From Owenia fusiformis (Eukaryota; Annelida; Polychaeta; Sabellida; Oweniidae): a DNA stretch of 64,000 bases. This document shows positions 8,139-17,100 of the stretch, piece after piece. A program made the translations under genes and the position numbers. Every line of letters begins with the position of its first letter. Position 1 is the first letter of the stretch. The notes under the pieces were generated by a model. It worked only from the letters and a program-made list of their open reading frames with translations. It made no database searches and was not told the DNA's origin. The DNA lies in contig CAIIXF020000002.1 of assembly GCA_903813345.2 (NCBI GenBank), forward strand, positions 24,254,455-24,318,454. The letters are read 5' to 3'.

Positions 8139-11100
8139 ATGCCTGCACGTCGTCGTCCCAGGGAACAGCCAAGAACTCCAAGGCCCCGCCCAGTGACCCA
8201 GTCAGCTAGTCAAAATACAGAAGAATCTGATTCTCTTGCATGGTTCAAGCCAATATTTCTGACGTTAGGCATAGGTATTTTGAAGACTATATAATAAATT
8301 TTATGTCACTCATGGTTTTAAACCTCGATAAAAAAAATCCCATATATGGTCAACACATCTGTTTATGCAAAGCAATAAAATCTCACATTGGCCAATTTTA
8401 TTTGGCGTTAGTTGTATTGTATGTTAGTTGTGATGATTCGATGCCTGCCAAAACAATTAACAGTAACATTTTGTGCCTGCTCAGGTGTAACCAACGTCTA
8501 CACCATGGATATGAGGTGTTCAGTAAACCAAAATACGTACTTGAATAGCTTTGCTCGGCTCATATACTTACCCTTTTTCTCTCTGTCTGTTGGTCGGTCC
8601 AAGTAATTGCTGATTTTGACGTAAAAAACGTCAATTTTTTCTGTACAAAGTTAATCCTTTCCAAACATAATGTGGTTACAATTCACTGTATGAGCACAGG
8701 GCCATAGGTCCTTTGTACATATTTATATTTGTTTAAGGTATTGGACTGATGTTAACACTGGTACAACACTACAAATTAGATTCACAGGGACGTAGGTCCT
8801 TTATACATATTTACATTTATTAAGGTATTGGACTGATGTTAACACTGGTACAACACTACAAATTAGATTCACAGGGACGTAGGTCCTTTATACATATTTA
8901 TATTTGTTTAAGGTATTGGACTGATGTTAACACTGGTACAACACTACAAATTAGATTCACAGGGCCGTAGGTCCTTTATACATATTTACATTTATTAAGG
9001 TATTGGACTGATGTTAACACTGGTACAACACTACAAATAAGATTCACAGGGACATAGGTCCTTTATACATATTTATATTTGTTTAAGGTATTGGACTGAT
9101 GTTAACACTGGTACAACACTACAAATTAGATTCAAGTAGTGGCGATGTGGCTGATCTTGAGTGGTGGCAACTTTCTGTAGTCTACCAAATCTACCCTAGA
9201 TCTTTTCAAGACTCAGATGGTGATGGGATCGGAGATTTAAAAGGTTCAATTTCTGCAATGTCTCAAATTCTACTAATTACATTAAACACCCCGACATTTG
9301 ACCTCGGAATCCTACAAATACTCGGACTTCAGCAAACATGAGGTTTGGGCAAATTAGGTTCAATTCTTATGCCGGGCATAATTTGCCCAAACCTCATGTT
9401 TGCTGAAGTCCAAGTATTTGTAGGATTCCGAGTTCAAATGTTATTAGTTTCATTCAATAGTTGATAATTAATGGAATAGTTTAAAGGTTTCATTTCATAG
9501 AATACACAATACCTTGTTTCTATTTTATTATCAAATATATGTATGTCATCAACACAATTATTTGATTGCTACGTCACGACCACAAGTGGTGACATATTGT
9601 TATTGTCTCCAATTTTTTGGTGGTCATCAGCATTCAGCATCTCTAACAAATCCCAAGTGGTAACATTTTGCATGTAAATGCCATATGTAGTTTTCTTCTT
9701 CCTATTCAGGAATAAAATCCCGCCTTGGCTATATAGAATATCTAGGCGTTGGTGCGATATGGTTAAGTCCAATATACAGCTCTCCTATGGCAGACTTTGG
9801 ATATGATATTGCTGACTTTAAGGATATTGATCCAATCTTTGGTAACATGGAGGATTTCCAGAATATGATAGAGGCAGCACATTCAAAAGGTATGTATGAA
9901 CTGTAAGTTTTATATTTATATCAGATATCTGCATTTATAGAGGATATCCTATGATTTATGAGTGATATGATTTTTCCACGAATGGATATGATATCTGCAC
10001 GAGTGAGCGTAGCGAGAGAGTGCAGATATCAATATCCATGAGTGGATTAAAATCATATCACGAGTAAGTCATAGGATGTTCTTTTTATTTTATAGTTAAA
10101 GTCATCATCAGAATCGTCGGAAATTAAGTGGATTTTCGAATTTTCCAAACGATCCGGCGGAGTTGACACTTAGCCTTGTTTTGAGTCTGAAGTAGCAAAA
10201 ATCCATAATTCATAGCATACGGCGCTGTATGTCATGGCTAAAACACCGTATGCTATGGTTAAGTGAAAATTTGTCAAAAATATCATGTTTTACCACTGAT
10301 TACAAAAATATCGTTTTTATTTTGACATGTTATCCTATGAATATCATGCTAACTATGGAATAATGTAGCATATACTGGTATTGTGCATAATATATACCTC
10401 AACAAAGTACATTGTTTTCATAGCACATTATACAAATGCCTATAACATATATAAGGGTTATGTACTGGAAGGTTTTGGATATGAGGTTTATCCAGAAGGA
10501 AATATCCATATCTAACAAGGGAACCCCATATCCTAACCGACTGTACATAACTGCTTTATCCTATACCCAGTAATGTTTTCTAAAAAATTCTAATTTTTTC
10601 AACATTTTTTCAATTTCTTTTTCAACATTTTTTTCAAAGCGGGAAGATATGCCCTGGAAATATGGCAGGATATATGGAGGTTCAGGATATGGAAACCTCA
10701 AAATCAGGATAGGGGATATATCCTATCAACTTATCTCCCTAAAACTCTTCTTGGCATAGGATAAATAGGGGTTATGCACTGGGAGGTGGTGGATACAGGG
10801 AATATCCCAAGGGATATACGATATATCTTCCAGAGGGCCGAACTTCCAAATGAGCTTTCTTTGCAGTGTGTTCATTTGCTAAGAATTCATCCCCATTTCT
10901 TGATTTAGATTTTGAATTTTGTTCACTCCATTCGTTTGGCAGTTGGCACCTCTGTCTCTTGTTAAGTTCAGTGCTGAAATAGTTATGATGTGAGTTCCTG
11001 GGCCATCGCATGTCCCGCATGTGCAAACTACATTGAACTAGTACTAAAAATTTGTATTACTTACCAACTGCACATTGATTTATTTTACTACAAACAACCA

Positions 11101-14100: not shown

Positions 14101-17100
14101 CAGTGAGTACTGTAAAATATTGTACTGTAGTTTATTGTATTAAATCCAGTGAGTACTGTAAAATATTGTACTGTAGTTTATTGTATTTACTCCAGTGAGT
14201 ACTGAAAAATATTGTATTTACTCAGTGAGTACTGTAGTTTATTGTATTCATTCCAGTGAATATTGTAAAGAATATTGTACACACTCCAGTGAGCTGTTGA
14301 GTATTGTATTCACTCAAGCGAGTACTGTAAATTATTGTATTTACTCCAGTGAGAACTGTAGATTGTATATACTCTAATGTTTACTGTAAAATGTTGTTTA
14401 ATATACAGCCAGGACATTTTAATTTTACTGTTACTGAAGAATCTTTTGTTGAAAGCAAATCTTGATACAAATACTCAAATCATGACATTATTGTAGATTT
14501 TTAATGAGAAACAATGAGCCAGAAATCTTGTTATTTAAATAATGTATGATTTTTTATTACAGGATCAGTATGAGTCTTTGGACCATATCCATACTGCAAA
14601 TGGCCCAGAAATTCATGAACAAGTAGCTCTGTGGAGGCAGCTGTTTGATGAACATCAGGCAAAAACAGGGAAATACATGTAAGTGAAAGCGCCAATGTAA
14701 TTCGATGTTGAAACAATGTATTGTTTATAGGTTTATATATAAGAGAATAGATAGAAAAATGTTTCAGTTTTTATTGGCCCACCCTGTATATTATATGGAA
14801 GTTGACTGAAAACAATTGAAAATTGAACATCAGATATAAGCAGAGAAAACAGACTTAAACTCTCTCAGAAAAAATAGTAAGTAGATCTTGATCAAAGATT
14901 CTGTAATGATTGATTTACATCATCCTTTAGATTTATAACCTGTGGATCTTAATTTTAGAAACCTATTTTCTATTTTAGCTACATGGTGGTAGAAATGTAT
15001 GACAACAATGTAACCAAGATAATGGATTACTATAATTCTGGGGCTGACCAACCATTTAACTTTGGTTTGACCCCTCCAAGGGGTCTTTCTAATAACTGTG
15101 GGGGTCTTTGTGTGAAGGGTTTGGTCAATGACTGGCTTACAGCAATGCCAAAGGGAGCCTGGCCAAATTGGGTGGTGAGTATATTAAATATTTGTTTTAT
15201 TCCTCAGAAACATGATTGAAAATTTCAGATTTCAGGTGCGTATACCTGGAGAAGTAAAAAGAGTTACATAATCAGGAACATTCCATCTCTTAAAGTTTTA
15301 ATCAACTATAATTAACTAGGGAATTTCAGACATATCTTTCCTTATAACTTAAGAATATACCTTTGATGCCAAATTAACAAACGTTTTGTTAAATCAGCCA
15401 GTTTTACCAAATTGAATGGACACTTAAGGTGAAATTGGCAAAATTTGGGTAAAATGAGAAATATTCACATTTTTGAAACCCTCCCTTGGCTGGCTTCTGG
15501 TATGTACCATTTCTGTTTTAATAGGTGGGTAACCATGACCAGAAGAGGATCAGCACTAGGATTGGTCCTGGGTTTACAGATGCTGTCAACATGATGCTTT
15601 TGCTGCTTCCAGGTGAATATATAGTAACTAATTGTTAATGCAGTAAAATCTGTATAGTTGATCACCTTTCTTAACTGGAGACCTGTCTATGTGAACACTT
15701 TTTCTCACTTCCAATTAATCCCCCATTGACTCACATTAGTTATATTACAGAAAATGAGCACATAAATGTAAAAATATACAGAACATAGAATGGTATGAGA
15801 CAGAGCGATTCTTAAAATGAAAGAACTTCTCAAAAAAAGTTGTGCTCCATCAACTTTTTTAGATAATAATTTAATATGATTGTCCAATTTAATACAGTAA
15901 AACCTGTCTTAGTGAACACCTCTCAGTCTCTCTAGTGAACACCCTTTATCTCTCTAGTGGGCACCCTTTATCTGCACATACTCTTCTGGCTTCTGTATAA
16001 ATTGCCCTCTCTGAAGTGAACTACCAACAATGAATGTTTTTCCTCAGCAAAAAATGTTCACTGTACACAGGTTTTACTGTACATGTTTATTGCCACTCAG
16101 TCCATTGCATAATAGGCACGCAGTCCATTGCCAAGCTTGAAGAGATTGCCATTTGTAGCTGTGAGTTCCAAACCCTGGTCCCATGGATGTTTAATTTCCT
16201 CTTTGAGTTACCCACTTCACTAGTTAAGTATTTCTCGTTAAAAATTCAAAAATATCCCATTGTACTTTAGGTACACCTACTACATATTACGGAGAAGAAA
16301 TAGGGATGGAAGATATTACTGTGGCATTTGAAGATACTTTGGATCCTTTTGGCAAACTCTTTGGACCAGTAAGTACCGAGGTTATTAAATTTTATGCCAT
16401 CAAGAAGTTCCTTCGGCAGTCAGCATTTGTAACAATTGTCACATTTTGTAATTGTTACTGTAGAGAATTTACAATGTAGTGATTATCTGTACTTTTCAGC
16501 GCTATTGTTTTTTCTTAATGTCTCTGTGACTTTGACGTGCCGCATTGTGTAATTTTTGCTGAAATGAATTTATTCTTCAGGGCCGCTACATGGAGTTTTG
16601 TCGTGACCCAGCAAGATCTCCTATGCAATGGGACGACACAAAACAGGCAGGGTTTTCAACAGCAGATAAAACATGGCTGCCAGTTCATCCAGGCCACGTC
16701 ACTAGAAATGTAAAGGTATGTTAGGACATTCTTGTTTTAGGCTTGTAGAATCTCTGGTCCCCCATATATTTCTTCCTACTTTCAGCCTTTTTAAAGAGTT
16801 AAACCAATATGGTCTGATTAAAGTGTAAAATCTATAACTTTCCTCAATTCTATGGTCAGTTTCTTATTTTAATTTTCAAATATAACACGCTCGGTGATCG
16901 GATGAAATGAATGGAGGGGGAAGTGGCTGATTTTCAGTAGAAACTTTTAAAACACGTTACCATACGTTATATAAAAAAAATAATCGAAAATTATTAAAAT
17001 TGATTGGAGGGGGGACTTATGTGTCTATAAGACAATATGATAAGAGATGTAACTTGACTTTATTTCCAATACCTCCATATGTCCCTAGTTTTTACTTTTC

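Follow-up and report, generated by a model that had tools for sequence, protein, structure and literature searches.

Three splice junctions of one annelid gene in tandem arrays: probable mirages in an Alpha-amylase family gene of Owenia fusiformis

Why should three different exon-intron borders of a single gene each have been expanded into a row of tandem copies? The question is raised by a stretch of 64,000 nucleotides from the annelid Owenia fusiformis (GenBank assembly GCA_903813345.2, contig CAIIXF020000002.1, positions 24,254,455 to 24,318,454 of the forward strand), which is the window analyzed here and lies on the contig that we call C2. The gene in question, GH13, belongs to the Alpha-amylase family. 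An earlier note, made from the letters of the window, had described the arrays and offered two explanations, namely a local process that duplicates junction DNA or selection for many splice sites. The arrays stand up to closer inspection, and neither explanation finds clear support in our counts. Most likely they are mirages, the name given to minisatellites spanning exon-intron borders in amphioxus: neutral tandem duplications that crossed a border and of which the exon-side junction was retained.

The gene model was rebuilt from the sequence of the window and reads as follows (lengths in amino acids, aa).

8139 to 18137, plus strand: GH13 gene (Alpha-amylase family, rBAT/alpha-glucosidase-like), 12 coding exons, 627 aa, by spliced open frame
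8139-8274, 9088-9243, 9710-9889, 11142-11302, 12935-13060, 13722-13847, plus strand: GH13 exons 1 to 6
14563-14678, 14979-15174, 15525-15612, 16271-16368, 16581-16715, 17772-18137, plus strand: GH13 exons 7 to 12

The Pfam family Alpha-amylase (PF00128) matches residues 1-506 of the protein (E 1.8e-130), and its best matches among solved structures are a mosquito salivary alpha-glucosidase and the amino acid transporter heavy chain rBAT; residues 64-506 align with structure 8slv and residues 69-505 with rBAT. This structure alignment takes in exons 5 and 6 (residues 212-295), so their borders are supported by homology as well as by frame and GT/AG. The alignment starts from residue 64-69, covering most of exon 2 and excluding the exon 1/2 join (residue 46). 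The exon 2 acceptor is placed by frame, by its AG, and by a hydrophobic stretch to which both exons contribute (judged by eye) and which would fit a membrane-anchored protein of the rBAT/alpha-glucosidase-like kind.

The arrays and the real junctions within them are listed below; the intronic copies are called decoys. Repeats were described with Tandem Repeats Finder (TRF), lengths are in base pairs (bp), and a slash within a motif marks the border.

8695 to 9134, plus strand: array 1, five copies of an 87/88-bp unit (TRF and junction motif)
8738, 8825, 8913 and 9000 (exon-start positions), plus strand: decoy acceptors of array 1, AG in 4/4
9088 to 9243, plus strand: real exon 2, its acceptor being the 3'-most (fifth) copy of array 1, by open frame
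12448 to 12980, plus strand: array 2, six copies of the end of intron 4 and the start of exon 5 (TRF, 3' end judged from the sequence)
12486 and 12550 (AG lost), 12614, 12721 and 12831 (AG kept), plus strand: decoys of array 2
12935 to 13060, plus strand: real exon 5, its acceptor being the 3'-most (sixth) copy of array 2, by frame and homology
13841 to 14397, plus strand: array 3, the real donor and 15 aligned copies (TRF, 13846-14397, and alignment)
13722 to 13847, plus strand: real exon 6, its donor CCA/GTGAGT being the 5'-most copy of array 3, by frame and homology

The unit of array 1 joins the last ~43 bp of intron 1 to the first ~45 bp of exon 2, and TRF describes it with either a period of 87 (94% matches) or a 175-bp unit (97%). 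Its junction motif AAG/GTATTGG recurs at 8735, 8822, 8910, 8997, and 9085, and among these five copies an open protein is obtained from the last one alone, all four decoys giving a premature stop if used. On a generic, hand-made splice matrix the decoys score 2.7-2.9, versus 2.9 at the real acceptor. Array 2 appears in TRF as two rows (12448-12634 and 12577-12846, with periods of 64 and 107), and its last copy extends into exon 5. Here AG is retained in three of the five decoys and lost in two; on the same matrix they score below the real acceptor or lack the AG, and each would lead to a premature stop (5/5). Array 3 has periods of about 30 and 46 and a 152-bp higher-order repeat (TRF), with an exonic portion of the unit of about 6-7 bases and no more. 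GT is present in 13/15 copies and lost in 2/15, and several decoys reach the real donor's score of 2.6. Ten of the 11 decoys tested would lead to a premature stop, whereas the first (donor after 13877) would insert 10 aa in frame.

In these respects the earlier description holds: three junctions do sit in tandem arrays (with 5 copies, 6 copies, and the real junction plus 15), the units cross the border, and the real junction is a terminal copy, in all three cases the one on the exon side. The unit sequences look unrelated, which supports the view that the three arrays are separate. Chance similarity as the source of the junction copies is excluded, with 0/110 hits on the donor side and 0/110 on the acceptor side when GH13 border probes were set against shuffled introns. 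The arrays share what characterizes a mirage: the unit lies across the border, the terminal copy is authentic (by frame, homology, and the stops met by decoys), and AG or GT is partly kept.

How might such arrays have come about? Along the introns of the Owenia genome, stretches of between some tens of bp and about 160 bp become duplicated, and a duplication that chanced to cross an exon-intron border would turn into an intragenic minisatellite. Those altering the reading frame would be lost, and a single-border duplication would be tolerated because the original exon-side junction would still be used, the extra copies being intronic and spliced out. Later unequal exchange or slippage may then have multiplied the units (as the higher-order units of 175 bp in array 1 and 152 bp in array 3 would suggest), and the decoys would decay like other intron DNA. 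Border placement of the arrays needs no special process, although there may be a mild bias toward borders. We infer the neutrality and this mutational route rather than observe them; regular splicing of the GH13 mRNA would be undisturbed, to judge from the intact 627-aa frame, and the decoys would presumably be ignored.

Other repeated DNA is found in and around the same gene. Directly upstream of array 2, intron 4 holds a palindrome (window 11355-12356) of two 497-bp arms, 95% complementary and 8 nucleotides apart, which is probably a foldback element. An interspersed element in intron 3 (window 10000-10365) has at least 40 further near-full copies in the genome at 92-95% identity (40 of 1119 candidates scored). 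Exon 3 has isolated upstream matches on the same strand at G000:C2:24247582, 24204352, and 24115129 (72-85% aa identity). The nearest (L032) comprises 215 bp at 89% DNA identity, that is, the exon plus short intron flanks, and within the 10 kb examined around it no other GH13 exon matched at E <0.1. Among the matches listed in a protein search, none represented another near-identical copy of the complete gene.

Whether borders, or this gene, are special can be judged from other Owenia genes. Control genes were sampled via Pfam exon matches, part of the listed matches being used, and their introns were placed by frame and splice score from these matches, not from annotation. Set 1 comprises chaperonin and myosin families and two GH13 paralogues (22 loci, 59 introns, 118 borders), and set 2 comprises kinesins and aldehyde dehydrogenases (23 loci, 43 introns, 86 borders). 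Set 3 consists of p450 exons (29 loci); single exons served to place 69 of the 78 possible borders, and these placements carry the most uncertainty. Match pairs with too wide a gap were skipped. No intron was obtained from 4 pairs in set 1 and 3 pairs in set 2, and the loci L023 and L028 (set 1) and L046 and L052 (set 2) had no usable intron. In sets 2 and 3 preference was given to exon pairs that were compact or to flanks that were short, and this may depress the rate. Sugar transporters, with 9 long single-exon matches listed, were not used as controls. A kinesin locus, L055, was chosen because its array was already visible and is excluded from the rates; L032 (paralogues) likewise stands outside them.

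As a border test, TRF alone was too insensitive (array 2 and 3 borders missed; control borders, 2/118), so the intron next to each border was searched with a 40-bp probe spanning that border, and positions were scanned every 5 bases in the same manner, superseding earlier random-position counts (42/1761, 72/509, and 45/1183). The probe threshold, 18 initially, became 17 (for borders as well as for positions) after a clear array (L009+L010) had scored 17. At threshold 17, duplicated borders number 4/118 in set 1 and 2/86 in set 2, with 131/4892 and 132/3264 interior intron positions, respectively; in the p450 set none of the 69 borders is duplicated, with 19/988 flank positions. Shuffled control introns gave 0/590 (set 1) and 0/430 (set 2), with donor and with acceptor probes alike. 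At threshold 18 the counts are 3/118 borders and 111/4892 positions in set 1 and 2/86 and 128/3264 in set 2, together 5/204 versus 239/8156. Over all controls, 6/273 borders compare with 282/9144 intron or flank positions, and there is no excess at borders. The earlier note had held that its view would fall if such arrays were equally common away from exon borders, and this is how the control counts turned out.

Border-crossing arrays do exist in other genes, at 6 of 102 control introns (95% interval 2-12%), in the chaperonin, myosin, and kinesin families. By side, they are four donors in set 1 and two acceptors in set 2. The loci, with L055 added, are the following.

L006: chaperonin-family donor, 154-bp duplication
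L009+L010: chaperonin-family donor, six diverged copies, dinucleotide lost in 2/5 decoys
L015: myosin-family donor, four near-identical copies in 34-bp steps, unit with only about 4 bases of exon
L016: myosin-family donor, decayed array, dinucleotide lost in 4/7 decoys
L033 and L044: kinesin-family loci, acceptor arrays
L055, G000:C2:23265700-23269900, minus strand: kinesin, exon acceptor crossed by a 159-bp unit in 18 copies, outside all rates

What recurs in L055 is the last part of a kinesin motor. In each unit a pyrimidine-rich stretch is followed by CATAG and some 130 bp of exon, the steps measure 158-159 bp, and the last copy alone continues into the full 176-bp exon. No copy has a stop within the matched frame, and all except the last then reach TAA. 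AG is present in 18/18 copies (the exact search motif contained AG, and the regular spacing leaves no gap for missed copies).

The fate of the decoys can be followed over nine arrays, where 35 of the 45 decoys covering the splice dinucleotide retain it, versus 38.2 expected if they had diverged like the flanking columns; hence there is no sign of selection on decoys. In the arrays with more divergence (array 2, L009+L010, and L016) a considerable share of the splice dinucleotides is gone.

Several observations weigh against the reading of the GH13 arrays as neutral mirages. Because positions that share an array do not count as independent, whole arrays were counted too. In the GH13 gene three of four arrays cross a border, with 0.74 expected under random unit placement (P 0.0145), and for controls and GH13 together the count is 9/21 versus 4.77 expected (P 0.022). 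GH13 also exceeds the controls per intron (3/11 versus 6/102, Fisher P 0.042) and per border (3/22 versus 6/273, P 0.023), which bears out the earlier claim that three arrays in one gene are unusual. In L055, 10 of 125 exonic columns vary, and 7 of these 10 lie at third codon positions (a post hoc observation), which hints at constraint on the copies there and could alternatively reflect exchange with the real exon. Lastly, some decoys may be used, and L055 is the best place to seek a used decoy array.

The array counts speak for a process by which junction DNA is duplicated in preference to other DNA, for example through transcription- or spliceosome-linked breaks at exon borders, and the 17 arrays in the 102 control introns lie slightly over expectation as well (6 border-crossing versus 4.03). 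Taken by themselves, however, the controls show no significant excess (P 0.18), and at the level of positions none is seen in the controls or within the GH13 gene itself (3/22 borders versus 203/1444 positions, many of the latter inside the same arrays). GH13 was picked as a striking case, so the pooled excess is read as weak evidence for a mild border bias in array formation; case selection weakens the array-level and per-gene excess without erasing it. We consider a junction-aimed process unlikely. For an 11-intron gene, the probability of at least three mirages is 0.024 at the rate of 6/102 and 0.010 with the p450 borders included, independence being assumed in both. With 26,966 genes reported for O. 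fusiformis (PMC9977687), genes with three mirages should exist in numbers, and GH13 lies in the upper tail of the genome's mirage background.

There is also a bolder possibility: mirages might be systematic in Owenia, formed with a mild border bias in thousands of introns, a few of them (e.g., L055) being regulated truncation switches. To us this seems a long shot. If it were true, the spliceosome would have to ignore functional-looking duplicate sites in favor of the exon-side copy, and L055, whose copies remain open and stop just past the motor domain, would be one of the switches.

Selection that keeps many splice sites, with decoys serving alternative splicing or lowering expression via truncated messages, was the other proposal of the earlier note. 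It could draw on the array 1 decoys and several array 3 decoys, which score near or at the level of the real site, on the in-frame addition of 10 aa by the donor after 13877, and on the unbroken row of AG in L055. However, the dinucleotides are kept no more often than expected without selection, with losses in array 2 (2/5), array 3 (2/15), L016, and L009+L010, and 19/20 of the GH13 decoys tested would truncate the protein. In our opinion this makes such selection improbable. Least credible of all is that the assembler multiplied one junction: tandem arrays are generally error-prone in assemblies, but in each of the three arrays substitutions and indels distinguish the copies, and higher-order patterns are present. 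The PacBio reads behind the published Owenia assembly, if that is the one analyzed here, are far longer than the arrays (read N50 25.75-30.75 kb; PMC9977687). The true copy numbers may nevertheless differ from those assembled.

Elsewhere in the window, on the minus strand, a tandem array (1235-4352, TRF; unit of 84 bp, about 37 copies) encodes C2H2 zinc fingers, and an open frame at 1145-3667 on that strand matches zinc-finger families. In the genome at large, 38 forkhead matches are spread over nine contigs, numbers 1, 2, 3, 5, 6, 7, 8, 11, and 12 by length; provided that the published numbering follows length, this agrees with the list given for O. fusiformis (PMC9539403). Fox genes form two tight clusters, on C8 and C10 (numbers 5 and 7), where the same paper reports tandem foxQ2 genes. 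These Fox places fit Owenia better than amphioxus. A search for the GFP family found no match, which says little because the control genomes gave none either, and a COX1 search was likewise negative.

How, then, do the Owenia arrays relate to known systems? Repeated units with splice sites in a row are also seen where mutually exclusive exons stand in tandem, for example in muscle myosins. There the units are whole exons with both splice sites, whereas the Owenia decoys consist of one border and a partial exon. Among the myosin-head matches listed, twelve to the same part of the head (model positions about 18-84) follow one another at G000:C9:37986009-37994334 on the minus strand and are perhaps the mutually exclusive exons of a muscle myosin.

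The potato RdRp and fission yeast duplications come closer, being tandem duplications that include splice signals (PMC4974935). The potato duplicate, as described there, is an intron-exon stretch and crosses a border like the GH13 arrays, and array 1 resembles both cases in carrying AG/GT at every junction. The outcome differs: in potato and fission yeast a new intron arose, whereas in Owenia existing introns were lengthened, with the protein apparently unchanged, as the open frame suggests. Apart from these related duplications, we recognized no description of such arrays outside amphioxus among the papers listed in our searches of open-license literature, and in those searches the name "mirage" came up for them in the amphioxus literature only, which treats one gene at a time.

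The nearest relatives are the amphioxus mirages themselves, described as border-spanning minisatellites in Adh3, the globins BflGb6 and BflGb9, PGBD5, and troponin C (PMC3087553, PMC3902484). In the published accounts, as in Owenia, minisatellite-like copies lie across the exon-intron border on the donor or acceptor side, with AG or GT in many but not all copies, and the units measure 10-160 bp, versus about 30-159 bp in Owenia. PGBD5, with two arrays in one gene (60-bp and 108-bp repeats at two predicted exons), is a precedent for GH13. According to the same sources, amphioxus mirages seem not to disturb regular splicing (PMC3087553, PMC3902484), copy number varies between BflGb6 haplotypes, and haplotype or somatic length variation is reported for BflGb6 and Adh3 (PMC3087553, PMC3902484); the authors proposed them as a pool for new introns or exons (PMC3087553), a role that the Owenia arrays could play too. 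Owenia differs in being an annelid and not a cephalochordate, in having three arrays in GH13, and in the 18 copies of the kinesin L055.

In short, the phenomenon is known and not confined to GH13; what is new is its presence in an annelid, together with a first rough frequency. That 6 of 102 introns carry a mirage (and 0 of 69 p450 borders) suggests that mirages are no cephalochordate curiosity. Each of them sets up a natural competition between duplicate splice sites, in which like sites are separated by anything between a few dozen and about 160 bases and the gene requires just one.

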